Source: Glycomyces terrestris (lineage in GTDB: Bacteria; Actinomycetota; Actinomycetes; Mycobacteriales; Micromonosporaceae). From it: a stretch of DNA of 64,000 nt. The DNA is taken from positions 124,001 through 188,000 of the forward strand of contig NZ_RSEB01000001.1 of NCBI RefSeq assembly GCF_003933745.1. Reading direction: 5' to 3'. A program made the translations under genes and the position numbers. Below, piece after piece: positions 486 to 10,266 of this stretch; position 1 is the stretch's first letter, and each line of letters opens with the position of its first letter. The notes beneath the pieces are model-generated. The model did not search any database and was not told the DNA's origin. It saw only the letters and a program-made list of their open reading frames with translations.

Positions 486-1961
486 TCAGGTGCGGTCCGC
501 GCGGCGTCCCGATCGGGCCGCCGCGAGCAGCGCGGCGCCGACCAGCAGCGCCGCGGCCGCGGCGGCCGCGGGGGACGGCAGGTCCGCGCCGGTCACGGGG
601 AGCAGCGGCCGGGCCGCGCCGGTGCCCTGTGGCAGGGCATCGTCGCCGCCGTCGTCACCGGGCGCCGGGGTGTCCCCCGGCGGATCGGGGCACAGGCCGG
701 TGTCGCGGACGACGAAGTCCTGCCCGGTGATCGGCGCCTGGTCGGCGGACTCGACCTCGATGGTCCGCGTCAGGGCCTGCTCCGTCTGCTCGGGCGGGGT
801 GGCCGTGATGGTGTGCTCGCCGATCTCGGCGCGGTCGAACAGGTAGCGGCCTTCGGAGTCGGTCGTGGTCGCGACCTCGGTGCCGTCGGCGGCGGTGAGG
901 GTCACGGGGACGCCGCCGAGCGGGATGCCGCACTCGGTGGCGACGCTGCCGCCGACCGCGACGGGCTCGATGTCGCGGACGGTGAAGTCCACCGCGGACG
1001 GGCAGGTCGACAGGTCGGTGGTGGTGCGGCGCGCGCCTTCGACGATCATGCCGTCCGGGGCGATGACCTCCAGGTCGTACTCGGTTCCCATGGTGTAGGC
1101 GGGGAACGCGTACGCGCCGGTCGCGTCGGTCTGGGCCGACTCGAGCTTGGCGCCCGCGGCGTCGAAGAGGTTGACGGTCGCCCCGGCCACGCCGGCACCG
1201 GTGTTCTCGTCCGTCACGGTGCCGGTGAGGTCGCAGGCCATGGAGGCGAACCAGGTCTGGTAGACCGGGAAGCCCGAGCGGCGGGTGAAGACGAACGTGA
1301 GCTCCGACAGCGGCACGGTCGGCTCGAACCAGGCCGAGGCGCCGGACCGGTCGGCCGCGTCGGCGCGGCCGGTGAGCGTCATCGCCGACGCGTCCCAGGT
1401 CGGCGACTCGTCGTCCACGTTGGAGCACGACGGTCCGCCGGGGGCCTCGCTGGAGCAGTAGTTGAACGCGCCCTGGAACCCGATCTCGGCGGCGGTGACG
1501 GCGTCGCCGTCGACGTCCTCCGCCTCGATCCGCACCGCGTCGGCGTCGATGTCGCCGAGCACGAACGCGAAGAACCCCACCGGGGTCGGGCCGTCGAACC
1601 GGTACGTCGTGGTCGACGGCGACGCGGCGTTGTCCGCTGCGGGCCGGAGGTTCAGGTACGGCTCGCCGCGGCTCGACCCGTATTTCGCGCCGACCGGCGT
1701 GCCCTCGGACAGCCAGGTGCTCGACCCGGAGATCTCGCCGACGCCGCTGCCGCTGCGCGAATCGGTGGTGAACGACGCCTGGAGTCCCGGCGCGGTCCCG
1801 ATCGTCACCGCGCCCGTGTACGCCCCGGACGACCCGCCCCAGTCGCTCCAGTCGGCCCACGCGCCGGCGGACGTCTGCGCCTGCGCGGCCGCGGGAGGCG
1901 CCTGGCCGAGGGCGAGCGCGACGAGCATGAACACGGTGACGGTCAGTCCTCTTGCGAACAC
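486..1961 (-). CDS. Secreted LPXTG-anchored surface protein with repeated Cna-B/SdrD-like domains
   Basis: The protein has 491 residues. It begins at a GTG, with a signal peptide ending about residue 27 (...LGQAPPAAAQA). A roughly 210-residue acidic region follows, rich in Asp, Ser and Thr, with several Cys. Two tandem carboxypeptidase-regulatory/Cna-B-like beta-sandwich repeats come next, recognisable by G-x-P-V-x-L/V-x-D-x-x-G and GxYxF patterns (for example TDSEGRYLFDRAEIGEH near residue 370). The C-terminus is LPVTG, a hydrophobic stretch and an Arg-rich tail, which is a sortase sorting signal. It should therefore be covalently wall-anchored. The N-terminal region may bind a ligand, but I do not recognise a catalytic fold. 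It lies 115 bases downstream of the GH32-like/GH91 gene on the same strand and could be the last gene of the fructan operon. No strong terminator is visible in the gap. Confidence 0.75.
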   Translation of the reverse strand: MFARGLTVTVFMLVALALGQAPPAAAQAQTSAGAWADWSDWGGSSGAYTGAVTIGTAPGLQASFTTDSRSGSGVGEISGSSTWLSEGTPVGAKYGSSRGEPYLNLRPAADNAASPSTTTYRFDGPTPVGFFAFVLGDIDADAVRIEAEDVDGDAVTAAEIGFQGAFNYCSSEAPGGPSCSNVDDESPTWDASAMTLTGRADAADRSGASAWFEPTVPLSELTFVFTRRSGFPVYQTWFASMACDLTGTVTDENTGAGVAGATVNLFDAAGAKLESAQTDATGAYAFPAYTMGTEYDLEVIAPDGMIVEGARRTTTDLSTCPSAVDFTVRDIEPVAVGGSVATECGIPLGGVPVTLTAADGTEVATTTDSEGRYLFDRAEIGEHTITATPPEQTEQALTRTIEVESADQAPITGQDFVVRDTGLCPDPPGDTPAPGDDGGDDALPQGTGAARPLLPVTGADLPSPAAAAAAALLVGAALLAAARSGRRADRT

Positions 1962-2076: not shown

Positions 2077-4398
2077 TCACGCCTCGGCGTCCTCCCCGGG
2101 GACGGCGGGGCTCGGCCGGACGGCGTTCGCCGCGGGGTCCGCGTCGACCTGGCGTTCGGTCCCCGAGTCGAGGATCGTGTTCCGCCTGGACTCCGGGTCG
2201 ACCAGGACGGTGGTGACGGCGAGGCGCGCCGCGGCGTCGGTCGAGAGTAGGGCGTCGACCTGCGCCGCGTACGCGGAGGCGCCCGCCTCGCCGCGGGCCT
2301 GCATCGACACGACGTGGTTGGCGGCGACGTAGTTCCGCTCCCCCGCCTTGAGGCGGATGACGACGGGCGCCGCGCCCGCGGGGCGGACCCTGGCGGGGTC
2401 GACGATCGCGGAGAAGTGGTTCCCGATGACGGAGTTGCCGCTGCCGCTGACGGCGAGCAGCCCGAAGTCGTCGTCCAGGCCGTTGTCGACGCCGAAGAAG
2501 GGGGCCCAGGGTTCGTGGTCGCGCAGGAAGTGGTTCGAGCCGATCAGGTTCTCCGAGCTCGCCTCCAGCACGACCATCCCGGGGTAGAAGGAGTGGAGCC
2601 GGTTGCCGGTGACGCTCGACCTCGTGACGCCGTCGAGGCGGATGCTGCTCGCGCCGCGGGGGAAGACGTTGTTCGCGGTGATCAGGAGTCCGCCGTGGTG
2701 CTCCGCGTAGATCGAGTGGCCGTTGCAGCCGGCCCCGATCAGGTTGTCGGTGATCTTGGAGGCCTGGCCCCAGCCGCGCAGTTCGATGCAGCTGCCGCAT
2801 TCGGCGATGAAGTTGTCGTGGATCGAGAGCGCGTCGGCGTTGTGGACGGTGAGCGCGTGCTCGAGGTAGACGAAGCCCATGCCGTTGACGCGGAAGGAGT
2901 CGTTGGCGTCCGCGACGTAGATGCCGGTCTTGCCGTTGACGTAGGTGTTCTCCGGGTGGAGGCCCGAGCCGTCCGAGGCGAAGTGGAGTCCGTCGATGCA
3001 GAAGTCCGCGAACTCGACCGAGCTGATCCGCGGGTGGCCGCTTCGCGCGACGAGGAAGGCCGCGCCCGCGCGCTCGTCGTCTCCCGGGGGCAGGTCGACG
3101 AGGACGCGGCTGCCGCCGGGCCAGAGTTCGTGCAGGTCCGGCCATTCGTCCTCGGGCACGTTGAAGCGGATGCTCGACGAGGTGAAGCCGTGGCCGGCGC
3201 CCTCGATCCGCAGGAAGCTGAGGTCGATGAGGACCTGCGTGCGGAGGCGGTAGTCGCCGGGCGGCAGGTGGATCACCGCGCCGGGCTTGCCGCCGTCGCG
3301 GGCGTCGGCGTCCTTCTGGCGGCTCTTGATGTCGGCGATGATGCTGTTGAGCACCTCGCCGACGTCCTCGGCCGCGTCGCCGACGGGCCACTGCGTGACG
3401 TCGTAGTGGTTGGCGGGCATGGCGGTCCGCGTTCGCGCCGGTGCCTCGGACGGGGCGGTCCAGTCGACGGTGAGCCGGCCGTCGACCCATCGGACCGGTC
3501 GCGGGTCGGTGATCTCGCCGATCCAGTTCCCGTGGCCGTCCTCGTTGCGGAACGCCAGGAAGCGCCACTCCCCCGCCCGGTCCTGCACCAGGCGGCCGAC
3601 GTAGAGGCGCTCGTCGGTGATGCGGTACGCCTCCTCCAGTCGGAACGGCCCGGTCGGGGCGTCGATGGGGAAGGCCCACACGCCGCCCGCGGGGTCGCGG
3701 TCGCGGCGGCCCTGGGCGAGTTCGGGGCCGAGGCAGGAGAACAGGCCGACCGGGGTGCCGTCGACGACGGCGGTCTGGACCACTTCGACGTGCCCGAAGC
3801 CGGCGCCCGGCTCGGACAGCGGGGGCCGGACGGTCCAGTGGACGAGGTCCGGGGAGGTCGCGTGCCCGATCACGCCCCGGTCGTCGGGCGCGCCGCGGTT
3901 CGCGCGCGCGGTGGTCAGCATGTGCCAGCCGTCCTCGGCGCGGAACACCCACGGGTCGCGCCACGCCTGGTCCGGCCACTGCCGGGTCGCGGCCGTCTCG
4001 TACCAGCGGGGGTCCGGTTCGAGCACCTGCCGCTCGGGCTCGCGGCGCCAGGTGAAGAGGTCGTCGGAGACGACCGAGCTGATCCGCTGCGCGAGCCCGT
4101 CCTCGGCGCGGCTGACCGCCGTGTAGAACATCCGCCACCGGCCGTCGTCGCCGCGGACGACGGAGCCCGTCCAGGTCGCGAGGTCGTCGAAGGCGGGGGC
4201 GTCGTCGGGGATCACGGCGTCGGCGTGCTCGGTCCAGGTCGTCAGGTCGGTGGAGGTGGCGTGTCCGATCGAGGCGCGCCAGTGCCGCCGGTCGGGGTCG
4301 AGGAGCGCCCGGGGCGCCTTGAGGAAGTACAGGTGGTAGCGGTCGCCGTCGTCGGCGATCCAGAAGTCCCACACCCACGATGCGGCGAGTCGGAGCAT
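2077..4398 (-). CDS. Cytosolic fusion: GH32/GH43-like five-bladed domain + GH91 (difructose-anhydride / inulin fructotransferase) beta-helix
   Basis: The protein has 773 residues and no signal peptide. Residues 1-325 look like a clan GH-J (GH32/68-like) propeller: WDFW near Asp11 in the place of the WMNDPNG nucleophile motif, WRDPW at 147-150 as the RDP transition-state motif, and HVEVVQ with Glu205 as candidate acid/base. Residues 331-755 are a GH91 right-handed beta-helix, from HYDVTQWP through GFTSSSIRFNV to FIAECGSCIEL. The Asp/Glu pair that I recall as catalytic in GH91 (11 residues apart) is kept as Asp522 and Glu533. GH91 enzymes either convert inulin to difructose anhydride or hydrolyse the anhydride. 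Intracellular location and the ABC importer upstream favour the hydrolase. The start lies one base after the lacI stop, with AAAGG upstream, so the two genes are tightly coupled. The family assignment of the first domain is less certain than that of GH91. Confidence 0.85.
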   Translation of the reverse strand: MLRLAASWVWDFWIADDGDRYHLYFLKAPRALLDPDRRHWRASIGHATSTDLTTWTEHADAVIPDDAPAFDDLATWTGSVVRGDDGRWRMFYTAVSRAEDGLAQRISSVVSDDLFTWRREPERQVLEPDPRWYETAATRQWPDQAWRDPWVFRAEDGWHMLTTARANRGAPDDRGVIGHATSPDLVHWTVRPPLSEPGAGFGHVEVVQTAVVDGTPVGLFSCLGPELAQGRRDRDPAGGVWAFPIDAPTGPFRLEEAYRITDERLYVGRLVQDRAGEWRFLAFRNEDGHGNWIGEITDPRPVRWVDGRLTVDWTAPSEAPARTRTAMPANHYDVTQWPVGDAAEDVGEVLNSIIADIKSRQKDADARDGGKPGAVIHLPPGDYRLRTQVLIDLSFLRIEGAGHGFTSSSIRFNVPEDEWPDLHELWPGGSRVLVDLPPGDDERAGAAFLVARSGHPRISSVEFADFCIDGLHFASDGSGLHPENTYVNGKTGIYVADANDSFRVNGMGFVYLEHALTVHNADALSIHDNFIAECGSCIELRGWGQASKITDNLIGAGCNGHSIYAEHHGGLLITANNVFPRGASSIRLDGVTRSSVTGNRLHSFYPGMVVLEASSENLIGSNHFLRDHEPWAPFFGVDNGLDDDFGLLAVSGSGNSVIGNHFSAIVDPARVRPAGAAPVVIRLKAGERNYVAANHVVSMQARGEAGASAYAAQVDALLSTDAAARLAVTTVLVDPESRRNTILDSGTERQVDADPAANAVRPSPAVPGEDAEA

Positions 4399-4399
4399 G

Positions 4400-5455
4400 T
4401 CAGGCCTTTCGGGGTTCTCGGGGGGCGGCGACGGAGCCGCGGGTGACCAGGGGGCAGTGGAGGCGGGTCGGGCCGTCGGGGAGGCGCTTGTGGTCGGCGT
4501 CCCCGCTGAGCAGGTGCACGAGCATCTCGACGGCCCACTCGCCCATCTCGTAGTGCGGCAGCGCCACCGTGGTGAGGCCGGGGAAGAGGTTCGCGGCGAT
4601 GAGCTCCTGGTTGTCGAAGCCCACGATGGACAGGTCGCGCGGGATGTCGAGGCCGAGCTCGGCCGCGGCCTGGTAGGCGCCCATCGCCATCCGGTCGTTG
4701 TAGCAGAACAGGGCGGTCGGCCGGTCGTCCCCGGCGAGGACCTCCCGGGCGAGCGCGTGGCCGGGCCGGGTCTCGGAGGGCGCCTGGAGGATCAGCCGGT
4801 CCTCGGCCACAATGCCGTGCCGGTGCAGCACCTGCTTGTAGCCGACGAGGCGCTCGTGGGTGGCGGGCACGTCGTCGACGTTGTTGAGGAAGCCGATGCG
4901 CCGGTGGCCGGCCTCGACGAGGTGGGTGACGGCGGCGACCGCGCCGCCCACCTCGTCGGGGACGACCGCCGGGAGGAGGCCGTCCCGGTCGGTCGCGTCG
5001 ATCAGCACCGCCGGCACGTCCCGCAGGTTCGCGGGCACGGACACCTCGCGGTGGTACATCGTGGCGTAGAGGACGGCCTCGACCTGCCGGTCGATGAGCG
5101 TCTGGACGTCGTCCCGGTGCGAGCCGCCGCTGGATTCGCGCTCGGCGTTGACGATGACGAGGGTCAGGTCGTGGGCGCGCGCCGCGTCCTGCGCGCCGAG
5201 GATGATCCGGCCCGCGTGCGGGGTCGTCGCGATCTCCTCGCTCAGCAGCCCGATCAGCCCGGACCGGTTGGTGCGCAGGGCGCGCGCCGCCCGGTTGGGA
5301 CCGTAGCCGAGCTGGGCCGCCGCCGCGCGGACCCGCGCGCGGGTCTCCGCGGAGACGCGGGTCTGCGGCGTGTCGTTGAGGACGTGCGACACCGTGGTGA
5401 TGGAGACGCCGGCCAGCCGGGCCACGTCTCGGATGCCCACTCCGTTCACCGCCAT
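4400..5455 (-). CDS. LacI-family transcriptional regulator of the fructan locus
   Basis: The protein has 351 residues. The N-terminal helix-turn-helix GIRDVARLAGVSITTVSHVL (residues 6-26) and hinge are followed by a periplasmic-binding-protein-like sugar-sensing domain, the standard LacI/GalR layout and length. It sits inside the minus-strand operon, 37 bases after the second permease gene and one base before the GH32-like/GH91 gene. It probably senses the imported sugar (difructose anhydride or a breakdown product) and acts on the palindromes between the solute-binding-protein gene and the divergent GH91 gene. The assignment to LacI is secure. The effector and the operators are inferred from position. 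Confidence 0.92.
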   Translation of the reverse strand: MAVNGVGIRDVARLAGVSITTVSHVLNDTPQTRVSAETRARVRAAAAQLGYGPNRAARALRTNRSGLIGLLSEEIATTPHAGRIILGAQDAARAHDLTLVIVNAERESSGGSHRDDVQTLIDRQVEAVLYATMYHREVSVPANLRDVPAVLIDATDRDGLLPAVVPDEVGGAVAAVTHLVEAGHRRIGFLNNVDDVPATHERLVGYKQVLHRHGIVAEDRLILQAPSETRPGHALAREVLAGDDRPTALFCYNDRMAMGAYQAAAELGLDIPRDLSIVGFDNQELIAANLFPGLTTVALPHYEMGEWAVEMLVHLLSGDADHKRLPDGPTRLHCPLVTRGSVAAPREPRKA

Positions 5456-5492: not shown

Positions 5493-6332
5493 TCATCCTT
5501 TCACCGCGCCGAGGGTCAGGCCCGCGACGATGTGGCGCTGGAGCGTGAGGGTGAGCAGGATGACCGGGATCGAGTAGACGGCGGCGAGCGCCGTCATCGC
5601 GCCCCAGTCGAGCCCGAACTGCGTCTGGAAGTTCGCGATCACGATGGGGGTCGTCTGCGCGCGCACCGAGGTGAGCAGCAGGGCGAACAGGAACTCGTTC
5701 CACGAGGCGAGGAACGTGAAGATCGCCGTCACCGCCAGGCCGCCGGAGACCACCGGCAGGACGACCCTCCACAGTGCTCCGATCCGGGAGGCGCCGTCCA
5801 TCTTGGCGGCCTCCTCGATCTCGTCGGGGACGGCCTCGAAGAAGCTCGCCATGAGCCAGATCGAGAGCGGCAGCGAGATCGTCGTGTGGGCGATCGCGAG
5901 CGCGAAGGAGGTGTCGTTGATCCCCAAGGCGCGCATGGTCTCCACGAGCGGGGCGCCGACCGCGATCGTCGGCACCATCCGGGTGACGAGCGCCGCGAGC
6001 ACGAACACCCGCCCGCTGGGGGTGCGGTACCTGGTGACCGCGTAGGCCGCCGGCACCGCGAGGACGAGCGAGATCAGCGTGCTGAGCACGGCGGTCATGA
6101 CGCTGTTGACGAGCGCCGGGACGACGCCCTCCTTCGAGAGGGCCGCCGTGTAGTTCTCCAGCGTCCAGACGTCCGGGACGACCGACGGGGGCACGGCGAT
6201 CGCCTCGCTCGGGGGCTTGAAGGAGGTGAGCAGGAGGTAGGCGAACGGGAAGCCGTACAGCACCAGGATCACGGCGAGGAGGACGAGGAGGATCGCCTTC
6301 GTCGATCGGCGGCGGGTCTCGATGCCGTTCAT
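5493..6332 (-). CDS. ABC sugar transporter permease, MalG-like
   Basis: This 279-residue inner-membrane permease has six predicted transmembrane helices. The cytoplasmic EAA loop reads EEAAKMDGASRIGALWRVVLP, matching the EAA-3-G-9-I-x-LP signature that docks the ATPase. The ATG start overlaps the stop of the preceding permease by four bases (ATGA), so the two are translationally coupled and should form a heterodimer. This is the carbohydrate-uptake class 1 layout. No ATPase gene is present in this operon, which fits the many actinobacterial sugar importers that share an MsiK-type ATPase encoded elsewhere. The substrate is inferred from the GH91 neighbours to be difructose anhydride or fructo-oligosaccharide. 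Confidence 0.9.
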   Translation of the reverse strand: MNGIETRRRSTKAILLVLLAVILVLYGFPFAYLLLTSFKPPSEAIAVPPSVVPDVWTLENYTAALSKEGVVPALVNSVMTAVLSTLISLVLAVPAAYAVTRYRTPSGRVFVLAALVTRMVPTIAVGAPLVETMRALGINDTSFALAIAHTTISLPLSIWLMASFFEAVPDEIEEAAKMDGASRIGALWRVVLPVVSGGLAVTAIFTFLASWNEFLFALLLTSVRAQTTPIVIANFQTQFGLDWGAMTALAAVYSIPVILLTLTLQRHIVAGLTLGAVKG

Positions 6333-7216
6333 CGGGCCTCCCCCGGCCGCCAGATCGCGGCGACGGCGACGGACGCGACGAGGAGCATCCCGATCAGGTA
6401 GATCGTGCCCATCGCGCTCGCGAGGCCGATGTCGCCGTAGCGGGTCATGGTGCGGTAGATGAGCAGGCTGAGCGTGGTCGTGCTCTCCTGCGGGCCGCCG
6501 TTGGTCTGGATGAGGATGATGTCGAACGCGCGGGCCGCGTCGATGCCGCGGACGATGAGCGCGACGGCCATCACCGGGCGCAGCAGCGGGAGGATCACCC
6601 GGAACAGCATCGTGGGGAAGCGCGCGCCGTCGATGCGGGCGGCCTCCAGGATCTCGCCGGGGATGGTCTGGAGGCCGGCGAAGAGTACGAGGGTGATGAA
6701 CGACGTCGTCAGCCAGACGTCCGGGAGGGCGACGGCGAACAGCGCGATCGCCGGGTCGCTCAGCCAGCCGACCTGGTCCGCGCTCTGGAGGACGCCGGCC
6801 CGGACGAGGAGCTCGTTGACGATCCCGAAGTTGTCGATGAGCAGGAAGCGCCACAGCAGCCCGGCCACGACGGGCGCGATCATGAGCGGGTACATGAAGA
6901 TCGTGCGGAACACCGTCGAGCGCCGGCCGAGCGCGGCGAAGATCAGCGCGACGGCGAGTCCGAGCGCGAACTCGAGCACCACGACGACGACCGTGTAGAC
7001 GACGGTGCGGGCGGACGCGCCCTGGAACGACGCCGAGGCGAACGCGTCGATGAAGTTCTGGAGGCCGACCGGGGTGCGGGGCCCGCCCGCGATCGGCGAG
7101 ATGTCGTAGAAGGCGTTCGAGACGAACCGGACGAGCGGCCAGAGCACGAAGGCCGCGAGGAAGAGGGCTGCCGGCGCCATGAGCAGCAGGGCGAACCGGC
7201 GATCGGTGACACGCAC
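6329..7216 (-). CDS. ABC sugar transporter permease, MalF-like
   Basis: This 295-residue membrane permease begins at a GTG (MRVTDRRFALLLMAPAALFL). It has about six transmembrane segments, and an EAA loop near residue 205 reads LEAARIDGARFPTMLFRVILP. It pairs with the MalG-like partner that overlaps its stop codon by four bases. A strong hairpin at 7242-7273 separates it from the solute-binding-protein gene upstream, a common way to keep permease levels below those of the binding protein. The family is certain. Substrate specificity is taken from the locus, not from the protein itself. Confidence 0.9.
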   Translation of the reverse strand: MRVTDRRFALLLMAPAALFLAAFVLWPLVRFVSNAFYDISPIAGGPRTPVGLQNFIDAFASASFQGASARTVVYTVVVVVLEFALGLAVALIFAALGRRSTVFRTIFMYPLMIAPVVAGLLWRFLLIDNFGIVNELLVRAGVLQSADQVGWLSDPAIALFAVALPDVWLTTSFITLVLFAGLQTIPGEILEAARIDGARFPTMLFRVILPLLRPVMAVALIVRGIDAARAFDIILIQTNGGPQESTTTLSLLIYRTMTRYGDIGLASAMGTIYLIGMLLVASVAVAAIWRPGEAR

Positions 7217-7279: not shown

Positions 7280-8578
7280 CTAGCGGAGGATCGCCTCGAT
7301 CTGCGCTTCCGCCTCCTTCAGCAGGGCGGCGTTGTCCGCCCCCGGTTCGACGGCCTTCTGGAGCATGGGCGTGAGCACGGTGTCGACGATCTCCTGCCAC
7401 TGCGGCGTCGCCGGGCGGGCGCGGGTGGCCGGGGCGTTGAGCGTCTCGAGGAGGGCGGGGTAGTGCTCCCTGCCGGCGACGTCGGCCTGCGACTCGAACG
7501 CCGAGACGCGCGCGGCCAGGCCCAGCGAGGTGTCGATCGAGAGCTCGTTGTGCTCGTAGGCGAAGGCGATGAAGTCCTTCGCGAGCTCCTGCTTCGCGCC
7601 CGCCGCGGGCACCGAGAGGTACCAGGCGCCGGGGACGCCCGCGACGCCGCCGTCGCCCGCGATCATGGGGGCGACGCCGATCCGGCCGGCGACGGGCGAG
7701 TCGTCGGGGGTCTGGGTGTAGGCGTGGCCCCAGAACCGCATCATGGCGAGCTGGCCCTGGTAGAAGAGGTTCTGCGCTCCGGCCCAGTCCAGCTGCGCCG
7801 CTCCGGCGGGGGCGTACGGCAGGAGGCTCGTGTAGTAGTCGAGGGCCGCCAGGTGCTCGGCGTCGTCGATGGTGACCTCGCCGCGCTCCGGGTCGAGGAC
7901 CATGTGCTCCTCGCCGGTCTGGGAGACGGTGGCGAGCCACTCGGTCTCGACGGCGCCCTTGACGTCGGTGCCGTAGAGGTCGGTCTGGCCGTCGCCGTCG
8001 GTGTCGCGCGTGAAGAACTCCGCGGCGTCGCGGTACTGCTCCCAGGTCGTGGGCGGCGCGAGCGGGTAGCCGTACCTCGCCTCGAAGTCGGCCTGGTGCT
8101 GCGGGTCCTCGAACAGGTCGGTGCGGTAGTAGAGGATCTCGGCGTTGGTGAAGATCGGCATGCCGACGTACGCGCCGCCGACCTGCGCCTCGGACACGAG
8201 GCCCGGGAACAGGTCGGCCTTCACGTCGTCGGTGAACAGGTCGTCGAGGGGGGCGACGCCGTCGGCGAACGCGCTCAACCAGATCGCGTCGAGCGCGGCG
8301 ACGTCGAAGGAGACGCTGCCCGAGCCGAGCTCGGTCTGGACGCGGTCGTAGAGGCCGTCGTAGGGAAGTTCGACGAGGGTGACGGCGGTTCCCGTCTCCT
8401 GCTCGTAGAGGTCGGCGATCGGCTCCAGTTCCGCCAGTCCGCCGCCCTCCACGACGACGGTGAGCTCGTCCGCGGCGGGGTCGCCGCCGGCGCCGCAGCC
8501 GGAGAGCGCGAGCGCGGCCGCCGTCGCGGCGGCGAGTGCGGCGGCCGGGACACGACCGCGGGTCCTGCGAAGCGTCAT
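7280..8578 (-). CDS. Extracellular sugar-binding lipoprotein of an ABC importer
   Basis: The protein has 432 residues. Its lipoprotein signal ends in the lipobox LALSGC, with Cys near residue 29, followed by the alpha/beta fold of family 1 extracellular solute-binding proteins (LTVVVEGGGLAELEPIADLYEQETG onward). GGAG about eight bases before the ATG supports the start. It is the first gene of the operon and is read away from the operator-rich divergent promoter. It should capture the sugar outside the membrane and hand it to the two permeases. The GH91 genes on both sides make difructose anhydride or inulin-derived oligosaccharides the best guess for the ligand. Confidence 0.92.
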   Translation of the reverse strand: MTLRRTRGRVPAAALAAATAAALALSGCGAGGDPAADELTVVVEGGGLAELEPIADLYEQETGTAVTLVELPYDGLYDRVQTELGSGSVSFDVAALDAIWLSAFADGVAPLDDLFTDDVKADLFPGLVSEAQVGGAYVGMPIFTNAEILYYRTDLFEDPQHQADFEARYGYPLAPPTTWEQYRDAAEFFTRDTDGDGQTDLYGTDVKGAVETEWLATVSQTGEEHMVLDPERGEVTIDDAEHLAALDYYTSLLPYAPAGAAQLDWAGAQNLFYQGQLAMMRFWGHAYTQTPDDSPVAGRIGVAPMIAGDGGVAGVPGAWYLSVPAAGAKQELAKDFIAFAYEHNELSIDTSLGLAARVSAFESQADVAGREHYPALLETLNAPATRARPATPQWQEIVDTVLTPMLQKAVEPGADNAALLKEAEAQIEAILR

Positions 8579-8641
8579 GACTTCGACTCCATTCTTGTAG
8601 CAGCTCTGCTACGCGTGAGGGGTCACCGTCGGGGCCGGTGA

Positions 8642-8666
8642 CAAAACGTTTTGACAAAACGTCTTG
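8642..8666. promoter_or_regulatory. Tandem LacI-type operators on the ABC-operon side
   Basis: CAAAACGTTTTG at 8642-8653 is a perfect 12-base palindrome with the central CG typical of LacI/GalR sites. One base later CAAAACGTCTTG (8655-8666) repeats it with one change. They lie about 65-90 bases before the start of the binding-protein gene. A further inverted repeat, GTAGCAG-CT-CTGCTAC (8597-8612), sits in its 5' leader. The LacI protein encoded in the operon is the obvious ligand. Confidence 0.7.
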
Positions 8667-8723
8667 GCACGAGTGTGCGACCCCGGCTCGGCGGCTGTCA
8701 ATGCCAAACACTGAAAAAATCCC

Positions 8724-8801
8724 GCCAAAATCGTTTGGCGCATTGACCTGCCCGAACGGGCGGTCCTAGCATCGGTCAGCACGGTGCCAAATCCATTTGG
8801 C
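8724..8801 (+). promoter_or_regulatory. Promoter of the GH91 gene flanked by two palindromic operators
   Basis: TTGACC (8743-8748) and TAGCAT (8767-8772), 18 bases apart, form a sigma-70-like promoter reading towards the GH91 gene. GCCAAAATCGTTTGGC (8724-8739) lies just before the -35 box. GCCAAATCCATTTGGC (8786-8801) lies just after the expected transcription start. Both share the arms GCCAAA-N4-TTTGGC. A half-site GCCAAAC begins at 8703. A repressor bound at both sites would block transcription. Confidence 0.7.
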
Positions 8802-8829: not shown

Positions 8830-9006
8830 ATGAGCCCCTCCCCCGCCGGCGCCGGCCGCCGGACCCTCCTCCTCGCCGCCGGCGCCGCCGCGGTCCTCGC
8901 GGGACTCGGCGCGCCCCGGCCCGCCCGCGCCGAACCGCCGGCGGCCCCCGCGCAGGAGGCCGCAGCCGAGGACCGGCCGCACCGCACCCTCCTCGGCGTC
9001 ATCTGA
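8830..9006 (+). CDS. 58-residue ORF that is essentially a Tat-like signal peptide, in frame with the downstream GH91 gene
   Basis: The start ATG at 8830 follows GGAGACGGAG. The product has a twin arginine (AGRRTLLLAAG), a hydrophobic core and an AxA-type site (PARAEPPAA). About 23 residues remain before the TGA at 9004-9006. Secreted GH91 enzymes normally carry exactly such a leader fused to the YDVTTW catalytic domain. Here the catalytic ORF starts at 9055 in the same reading frame, and no other stop lies between. This therefore looks like the signal peptide of the enzyme detached by one TGA. It could be a nonsense mutation, a sequencing error, or a separately translated leader. It is too short to have its own enzymatic role. 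Confidence 0.55.
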   Translation: MSPSPAGAGRRTLLLAAGAAAVLAGLGAPRPARAEPPAAPAQEAAAEDRPHRTLLGVI

Positions 9007-9054: not shown

Positions 9055-10266
9055 ATGCCCTCGACCATCTACGACGTGACCACCTGGACCATCCCCGGCA
9101 GCCCCGGCACGACCGCGTACACCGACATCGGCGCCGTCGTGAACAGCATCATCGCCGACATCAAGGCGAACCAGCCGAATCAGGCGTCGAAACCGGGCGC
9201 CGTCGTCTACATCCCGCCGGGCGACTACTCGCTGAAGACCCGCATCGTCATCGACGTCAGCTACCTCCAGATCAAGGGGTCCGGCCACGGGTTCACCTCG
9301 TCGAGCATCCGCTACAACAGCGGCGACACCTCCGGCTGGTGGGAGATCTGGCCGGGCGGCAGCCGCATCAAGGTCGAGAACACCGACGGGAAGTCGGAGG
9401 CGATCCTCATCGACCGGGGCGGGTCGCCGCGCCTGAGCTCGATCGAACTGGTCGACTTCTGCCTCGACGGCCTCTCGTTCACCCCGAACCAGAACAGCTA
9501 CCGCAACGGCAAGATCGGCGTGCGCTCCACAAGCGACACCGACTCGCTCCGCATCACCGGCCTGGGCCTGGTCTACCTCGAACGCGGCGTCGTGCTCACC
9601 GGCGTCGACGCGTTGCAGCTCAACGGCAACTTCATCGCCGAGTGCGGCAGCTGCGTCGAACTCGTGGGCTCGGGGCAGGCCACGATGGTCAACGACAACC
9701 ACTTCGGCGCCGGGCCGGCGGGCTTCTCGCTCTTCGCCGAGGGGCACTTCGGGCTCCTCGTGTCGGGCAACAACGTCTTCCCGCGCGGCAAGAGCTCGGT
9801 GCACCTGAAGAACTGCAACGACAGCACCGTCTCGGCCAACCGGCTCCACTCGTTCTCGTCCGGCATGGTGACCCTCGAAGGCGACTGCCGCAACAACCTC
9901 GTCGGCGCGAACCACTTCCTGCGCAACCGCGAGTCGTTCGGGCCGTTCCAGGGCGTGCCGCTGACGACCGACGACCTGTTCGGCCTGGTCCACATCAACG
10001 GCAGCGGCAACACCGTCACGGGCAACCACTTCACCTACGACGTGCCCTCCGCCTCCATCACCCCGTCCGGGGCGGTGCCCACGCTCGTCCTGGTGAAGTC
10101 CGGCAGCGGCAACTACCTGGCGATGAACCACCACGTCGCGAACGTCGGCGTCCGCTCGGCCGTCCTCGACGGCAGCACCACGAACACGAAGGTCCTCGAC
10201 TCCGGAACCGCCGCCGAATTCCAGGCCCTCGGAGCGGCCACCTACGGCTTCCGCGCGACGCCGTGA
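9055..10266 (+). CDS. GH91 inulin fructotransferase (difructose-anhydride forming)
   Basis: The protein has 403 residues. It is a right-handed parallel beta-helix whose sequence follows known inulin fructotransferases closely: YDVTTWTI, PGDYSLKT, GHGFTSSSI, NSYRNGKIG, GFSLFAEGH and GNNVFPRGKSSV. Asp185 (VDAL) and Glu196 (FIAEC) sit 11 residues apart, matching the catalytic pair I recall for the Bacillus enzyme. These enzymes release difructose anhydride from the reducing-side end of inulin and leave a shorter chain. The ORF as called lacks a signal peptide; a matching one lies directly upstream behind a TGA. GGGAG stands seven bases before the ATG, so independent initiation is possible. DFA-III versus DFA-I product cannot be told by eye; the overall pattern is closest to DFA-III-forming enzymes I remember. 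Confidence 0.88.
   Translation: MPSTIYDVTTWTIPGSPGTTAYTDIGAVVNSIIADIKANQPNQASKPGAVVYIPPGDYSLKTRIVIDVSYLQIKGSGHGFTSSSIRYNSGDTSGWWEIWPGGSRIKVENTDGKSEAILIDRGGSPRLSSIELVDFCLDGLSFTPNQNSYRNGKIGVRSTSDTDSLRITGLGLVYLERGVVLTGVDALQLNGNFIAECGSCVELVGSGQATMVNDNHFGAGPAGFSLFAEGHFGLLVSGNNVFPRGKSSVHLKNCNDSTVSANRLHSFSSGMVTLEGDCRNNLVGANHFLRNRESFGPFQGVPLTTDDLFGLVHINGSGNTVTGNHFTYDVPSASITPSGAVPTLVLVKSGSGNYLAMNHHVANVGVRSAVLDGSTTNTKVLDSGTAAEFQALGAATYGFRATP

Follow-up and report, generated by a model that had tools for sequence, protein, structure and literature searches.

We identified in the window, the whole 64,000-nucleotide stretch of DNA from the soil bacterium Glycomyces terrestris analysed here, a fused gene (2077..4398, minus strand; 773 aa) that joins a GH-J propeller to a GH91 DFA-III hydrolase. 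Its product probably serves a cluster for DFA-III utilisation as a bifunctional enzyme inside the cell: the GH91 domain would open DFA III and the propeller would split the resulting inulobiose. Domains, fold, catalytic residues, gene cluster, selection, distribution and phylogeny were obtained by computation, and we infer substrates, activity, location, the order of evolutionary events and the benefit of fusion. The gene is defined by its open reading frame together with Pfam and structure-chain matches. The frame is intact on the minus strand from an ATG at window position 4398 to position 2077, and the plus strand of this interval contains a stop in the corresponding frame. The original prediction of one polypeptide comprising a GH-J-like propeller and a GH91 beta-helix is borne out by a GH32N match of 61.1 bits and a DFA-IIIase match of 743 bits. 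Its remark that GH91 domains usually stand alone agrees with our survey of DFA-IIIase loci (the best 80 of 243 confirmed), in which a GH32-profile match occurred in only 2 of 80 frames, those of Glycomyces niveus (L033) and G. salinus (L034); a survey confined to these 80 may overlook fusions that are more distant. The architecture combines known reactions in a fused form, and among the matches listed from the open PMC literature none describes a GH91 domain joined to a GH32-type one. No plasmid-borne fusion was found either, as none of the 113 plasmid records that match the fused protein covers 80% of it. Seventy of these records are from Rhizobium, and 11 of the 15 plasmid matches listed, all to the GH91 half (for example NZ_CP071457.1 155065-156474), are named NosD domain-containing protein, a name that is probably misleading.

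The N-terminal half is a five-bladed propeller (residues 1-311; 3466..4398, minus strand), a putative inulobiose-splitting beta-fructofuranosidase recognised by profile and fold matches. Specifically, the Pfam GH32N match has an E value of 1.7e-16 (gathering score 22.1), and all 35 members of the propeller family match the GH32 N-terminal model at E 0.01 or better. For residues 1-325, on whose glycosidase fold the original prediction depended, the fold search gave glycosidase propellers, and levanases, invertases and sucrases are among the structural neighbours. WDFW, RDP and the glutamate of HVEVVQ lie in the predicted order of a fructan hydrolase, with D11, D148 and E205 at the predicted positions. 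The putative nucleophile D11 (codon 4366..4368, minus strand), located in WVWDFW, is placed by profile alignment onto the WDTW aspartate of the GH68 inulosucrase 7bj4. The putative transition-state stabiliser D148 of WRDP (3955..3957, minus strand) aligns with the RDP motifs of 7bj4 and of the GH32 endo-levanase BT1760. The putative acid/base E205 (3784..3786, minus strand) aligns with the ELER glutamate of 7bj4 and the YECP glutamate of BT1760 (residue 221 by count on the chain sequence, assumed identical with the author's E221 in the title of entry 6r3u), with the cysteine of the EC motif replaced (EV, in EVVQ). The five blades and the order Asp, Asp (RDP), Glu are those of clan GH-J. A MAFFT alignment that offered D16 as nucleophile through a six-column gap was set aside in favour of the profile search.

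The propeller departs further from canonical GH32 enzymes. In place of the GH32 nucleophile motif WMNDPNG, the family carries WDFW or WDSW, and WDMW in two members, which corresponds to the WDxW motif of GH68; WDSW occurs in many members. In addition, the Pfam profile search detected no GH32 C-terminal beta-sandwich model at E up to 1, and the propeller ends at about residue 311, followed by the linker and the GH91 domain. BT1760 has a C-terminal sandwich, unlike the window propeller. The Pfam GH68 model picks up 21 of the 35 propellers at E up to 0.01, and the window protein is not one of them. The GH43 match of the window protein lies below the curated cut-off of 32.2 (22.6 bits for the propeller alone, 18.7 for the whole protein); at E up to 0.01, GH43 also matches 32 of the 35 propellers, which their relatedness would lead one to expect. 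Both 7bj4 and BT1760 act on polymers and are only about 19-25% identical to the propeller. Judged from these features, the propeller appears to represent a short GH-J subgroup with a GH68-like WDxW nucleophile and no sandwich.

GH91 DFA-III hydrolases form oligomers with active sites at monomer interfaces, and the fused propeller might be a catalytically dead binding or structural module of such an oligomer. The departure from the GH32 motifs would fit this reading, but D11, R147-D148-P149 and E205 are invariant in 35 of 35 aligned members (R147-D148-P149 in both family alignments), and the catalytic motifs are present in all 46 separate propeller genes examined, a set that partly overlaps with the aligned 35. 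Moreover, the propeller dN/dS is low, and the propeller also exists as a separate gene within equivalent clusters. We therefore consider a dead module extremely improbable and regard the propeller as a putative enzyme.

The C-terminal half, residues 327-773 (2080..3420, minus strand), is a GH91 DFA-III hydrolase domain. The DFA-IIIase chains 5zl5 and 5zks match residues 328-766 at 743 and 742 bits, respectively, and Beta_helix_2 of the inulin fructotransferase model scores 40.8 bits against a cut-off of 30. The half is 74.5% identical (333/447) to the DFA-III hydrolase ortholog of P. aurescens TC1 and 50.8% identical (200/394) to the adjoining inulin fructotransferase of the same genome. DFA III is therefore the likely substrate, while DFA I, also named in the original prediction, is unlikely, and the half is likely of DFA-III hydrolase type, neither a DFA-I enzyme nor a fructotransferase. 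Both predicted catalytic acids are retained: D522 (codon 2833..2835, minus strand) and E533 (2800..2802, minus strand) align with D199 and E210 of the TC1 ortholog, numbered from the chosen Met. The catalytic acids of the A. aurescens enzyme are given as D207 and E218 in passages of PMC4640833; the offset is a constant 8 and the spacing is 11 in both.

The two halves are connected by a 15-residue linker (residues 312-326; 3421..3465, minus strand), delimited by comparison with relatives and by low pLDDT. The linker is 13 residues long in L033 and 16 in L034; its sequence varies, and the differences are whole codons. The fused frame is uninterrupted in G. niveus and open to about residue 687 in G. 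salinus, where it then breaks. The dN/dS values of the window protein against each of these two relatives are 0.19-0.25 for the propeller and 0.18-0.23 for the helix, so that both halves look to be under purifying selection. Since the same frame recurs in relatives and selection appears to act on both halves, an assembly slip in one genome is unlikely. Nor is the fusion likely to stem from a frameshift or an assembly artefact, given a frame common to three genomes and linker indels of whole codons.

At the junction, comparison with the relatives suggests that the DFA-III hydrolase once started at what is now an internal ATG (3418..3420, minus strand), and the old start codon thus seems to persist as an internal Met. 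A ribosome-binding-site-like AAGGAG before this ATG is retained in L034 (duplex -8.8) and weaker in L033 (-6.0), while the window value of -3.2 is near a background mean of -3.4 drawn from only 36 ATGs. Free DFA-III hydrolase may therefore also arise in L033 and L034.

The original prediction went further and proposed a two-step channel. Two consecutive reactions in one enzyme are plausible, while the channel itself is unsupported. The full-length model has a pLDDT of 79.8 and a pTM of 0.57, and residues 317-328 fall below pLDDT 50, and the model thus gives no basis for placing the two sites relative to each other. Direct passage of inulobiose from the GH91 domain into the active site of the propeller, with no release in between, would be in line with consecutive reactions within one chain and with a linker of 13-16 residues kept in frame in three genomes; yet the linker's low pLDDT and variable length and sequence, the whole-chain pTM, and the internal start with its RBS-like stretch in L033 and L034 all speak against it and make it highly improbable. 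Fixed stoichiometry and proximity are enough to explain a benefit of fusion, and we claim no direct channel.

The fused gene is the last of a minus-strand run, and its ATG lies 1 nt past the stop codon of a LacI-family regulator gene (4400..5455). The run further includes ABC sugar permeases B (5493..6323, start approximate) and A (6329..7216) and an ABC solute-binding protein (7280..8578), presumably a component of the DFA-III importer; all four genes were assigned by profile matches and lie on the minus strand. Divergent from this arm, a leaderless GH91 inulin fructotransferase-like enzyme, presumed to make the difructose anhydride, is encoded at 9055..10266 on the plus strand (profile match). 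A sequence scan located operator-like palindromes between the two arms, at 8638-8670, 8724-8739 and 8786-8801. Two exact GCCAAANNNNTTTGGC palindromes occur there, where 0.02 would be expected per whole window with one mismatch allowed, and L033, L034 and the Micrococcales MAG locus L035 show similar palindromes at the equivalent place. On the other side, an ORF at window 486-1961 (minus strand) has a hydrophobic N-terminal stretch and an LPVTG-hydrophobic-arginine end; inspected by eye, its product looks like a sortase-anchored surface protein, which adjoins the cluster and is probably outside it.

No signal peptide is visible on the fructotransferase at 9055, and directly before it lies a 58-residue Tat-signal-like micro-ORF (8830..9006, plus strand) with the tail RPHRTLLGVI-stop. 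When the tail was not part of the search, 15 distinct loci had small Tat-like ORFs ahead of the fructotransferase; in all 15, one ORF ends in (hydrophobic/Pro)-hydrophobic-Gly-hydrophobic-hydrophobic-stop, and four further ORFs are tail-less. A script requiring the tail found the micro-ORF in 21 of 26 fructotransferase loci, and the enzymes of the other five bear their own Tat-like signal; as a control, none of 79 DFA-IIIase starts is preceded by a tailed micro-ORF. This set omitted L063 and L084, whose frame runs off the locus, and the fragment L094; a tailed micro-ORF was recognised by eye in L063 (HRHLIGVL) and L084 (ARIVGML), giving 23 of 28 loci. Beside the window, the micro-ORF loci are L033, L035, L045, L048, L063, L066, L069, L074, L075, L083, L084, L086, L095, L101, L106, L189, L190 and L193-L197. 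TGA read-through joining the signal ORF to the fructotransferase was rejected, because the micro-ORF stands in frame 0, 1 or 2 relative to the enzyme in 6, 7 and 8 of the 21 loci; the use of all three frames and the differing codons argue for a gene of its own whose protein product is conserved. In the 5.24-Mb genome, the back-translated tail is found at this locus and nowhere else. The nearest NCBIfam model, TIGR02811 (formate-dehydrogenase-region TAT target), is weak (16.4 bits, cut-off 48.45, E 0.008). By analogy with hitchhiker cases and the MelC1 helper, our best guess is that the micro-ORF product may be a dedicated Tat escort carrying the leaderless fructotransferase. One paper contains both terms, inulin fructotransferase and twin-arginine, and its title and the start of its abstract concern Pectobacterium genomics. 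The micro-ORF may exceed the fusion in novelty.

In the proposed pathway, the divergently encoded GH91 fructotransferase would convert inulin to DFA III outside the cell, and the ABC system would import it. In the cytosol, the C-terminal GH91 domain would convert DFA III to inulobiose, and the propeller would then release two fructoses as a beta-fructofuranosidase of the retaining kind, in which D11 would act as nucleophile and E205 as acid/base. Inspection by eye revealed no signal peptide on the fusion protein. According to sections of PMC11538131, the DFA-IIIase reaction is reversible, with DFA-III:inulobiose at equilibrium ranging from 59:41 to 74:26, and addition of a beta-fructofuranosidase led to complete in vitro hydrolysis of DFA III to fructose. 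With a reversible first step whose equilibrium lies toward DFA III, a second activity supplied at a fixed 1:1 beside the first would pull the pathway forward.

A GH32-like gene lies within the flank of 76 of the 80 DFA-IIIase genes (best 80 of 243 loci): 63 loci have canonical GH32 only, 10 the propeller type only, 3 both and 4 neither. Canonical GH32 was called at >60 bits in flanks of at most 6 kb, with a profile made from 13 sequences taken from these loci. The two types thus replace each other (Fisher p 1.5e-7, a value that ignores kinship, the canonical group being largely Arthrobacter and kin). The three loci with both are L075 (171 bits, other strand), L101 (181 bits on the other strand, 77 at the edge) and L088 (267 and 83 bits). 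L076, whose propeller is split over two frames in a different gene order, was retained as a propeller locus at 239 bits. This Cellulosimicrobium contig (4254-9520) has its propeller, LacI and permease A genes each split over two matches, likely by sequencing indels or decay. In genome G537, 17 kb of the DFA-IIIase locus L184 gave no match to the propeller or to canonical GH32, and the propeller gene is located elsewhere (L167), without a DFA-IIIase.

The wider propeller family was examined in 47 loci, taken from 48 stretches of up to 19 kb chosen among the genome-search matches; several of them end at contig edges. Neighbour counts by tblastn with few queries, which miss distant kin, were ABC 39, LacI 38, PfkB 11, DUF2961 4 and DFA-IIIase 0. 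The GH172 DFA I synthase/hydrolase belongs to DUF2961, and its hydrolysis of DFA I likewise yields inulobiose (passages of PMC8605356). L135, L137, L138 and L139 are the only loci of the 47 with DUF2961 (by Pfam in L135 and L137) and the only ones with a match to the window's solute-binding protein. In these four clusters the propeller gene accompanies DUF2961 (GH172-type), an ABC importer, LacI and PfkB, and L135 additionally has an inulin fructotransferase. Such clusters are likely the DFA-I counterpart of the DFA-III cluster, and inulobiose as the shared product of GH91 and GH172 opening would be the strongest substrate pointer for the propeller, a hint drawn from gene neighbourhoods.

No PfkB match was obtained in 36 and no GH172 match in 43 of the 47 wider loci, so the whole family need not act on inulobiose, and the literature searched contained no activity data for any propeller-type protein. 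The fused propeller might be an active beta-fructofuranosidase that mainly hydrolyses some other imported fructoside (sucrose, levanbiose or longer FOS), the fusion merely keeping co-expression. The frequent ABC and LacI neighbours, the few GH172-type and no DFA-IIIase genes in the wider family, and the levanases, invertases and sucrases among the fold neighbours lend this some weight; against it, the fused propellers sit in a clade drawn purely from DFA-IIIase loci (13 of 13 rows), and no canonical GH32 was found in the flank of 10 of the 13 propeller loci. We consider this alternative unlikely and retain inulobiose as the presumed substrate.

The origin of the fusion can be followed in related clusters. 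In 10 loci (L035, L044, L048, L059, L075, L086, L088, L097, L101 and L111), the two domains are encoded by separate genes within one cluster, and the separate propellers are 60-80% identical to window residues 1-322. A PfkB kinase gene lies between propeller and DFA-IIIase in 8 of these loci, confirmed by Pfam in L035, L044, L048, L086, L097, L101 and L111 and seen as a PfkB-like tblastn match (44%) in L088; in L086 a fructotransferase gene also sits between them. In L059 just a 183-nt PfkB match remains, and in L075 there is none and the genes are about 50 nt apart. This series, from separate genes with a kinase through a kinase remnant and adjacent genes to the fusion, makes an unusually complete gene-fusion record. 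In the propeller tree, the fused propellers form one clade (support 100/100), nested in the clade of DFA-IIIase-locus propellers (100/99), which holds 8 further rows, mostly Micrococcales. The L035 cluster is 77-91% identical to the window cluster, gene by gene; together with the nesting, this suggests transfer from a Micrococcales-like donor, followed by kinase gene loss and fusion, a direction deduced from the tree and identities. Fusion in Glycomyces would have occurred by losing the fructokinase gene that elsewhere separates the two genes. An origin of the fused propeller by duplication of the genome's own copy, L003, was rejected, as the two are 51-52% identical and L003 falls far away in the tree, among genes of its own genus.

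The fused frame occurs in 3 of 22 Glycomyces genomes, including G404, where it breaks near residue 687; the remaining genomes of the 22 gave no DFA-IIIase match at E 1e-20. L033 presumably corresponds to genome G402 and L034 to G404. No further full-length fusion match was found in 397 genomes of the order and 394 of the class, sampled evenly with the best two candidates per genome scored. In addition to the frame break in L034, no inulin fructotransferase match was obtained in G404, the genome to which it presumably belongs; either the break is an assembly slip and the strain scavenges DFA III made by other cells, or the cluster is decaying.

Known DFA-IIIases, such as that of Paenarthrobacter aurescens and 5zks, which we take to be the Arthrobacter chlorophenolicus enzyme, resemble the C-terminal half, which retains both acids, but they are single proteins of about 445-470 residues. 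The Blautia DFA-III clusters likewise combine a GH91 DFA-IIIase, a GH32-type enzyme and an ABC importer in a route via inulobiose (PMC11538131, in part); there two genes are used, whereas the window has one fused gene with a short GH-J propeller in place of a full GH32. The separate-propeller DFA-III clusters are equivalent, but the propeller is its own gene, usually with PfkB before the DFA-IIIase. GH172 clusters of Bifidobacterium dentium and Streptomyces davawensis likewise open the anhydride to inulobiose inside the cell, with a GH32-type enzyme presumed next; they differ in the opening enzyme, DUF2961, and in the anhydride, DFA I (excerpts of PMC8605356). In 2015 the Arthrobacter enzyme that splits inulobiose was stated as not yet identified (PMC4640833, in part), and in 2024 a GH32 beta-fructofuranosidase was named for Arthrobacter and shown in Blautia (PMC11538131, in part). 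The 2024 results partly answer the question of the second step, except for clusters without canonical GH32.

We regard as evenly balanced the full proposal of a self-pulling two-step enzyme, in which a DFA-III hydrolase and a dedicated inulobiose hydrolase, cytosolic and from a new subgroup of short GH-J enzymes (GH68-like WDxW, no sandwich), were fused by fructokinase gene loss, and in which the subgroup would be the second enzyme of the DFA route in some actinobacteria, after GH91 or GH172 by lineage. DFA-III hydrolase alone stalls, with the equilibrium toward DFA III; a natural fusion would show evolution pulling such a step and would let a single protein take DFA III to fructose. Since the domains are separate genes in related bacteria, the fusion hints at the second-step enzyme there, a Rosetta-stone clue to the propellers that have genes of their own in Micrococcales DFA-III clusters.
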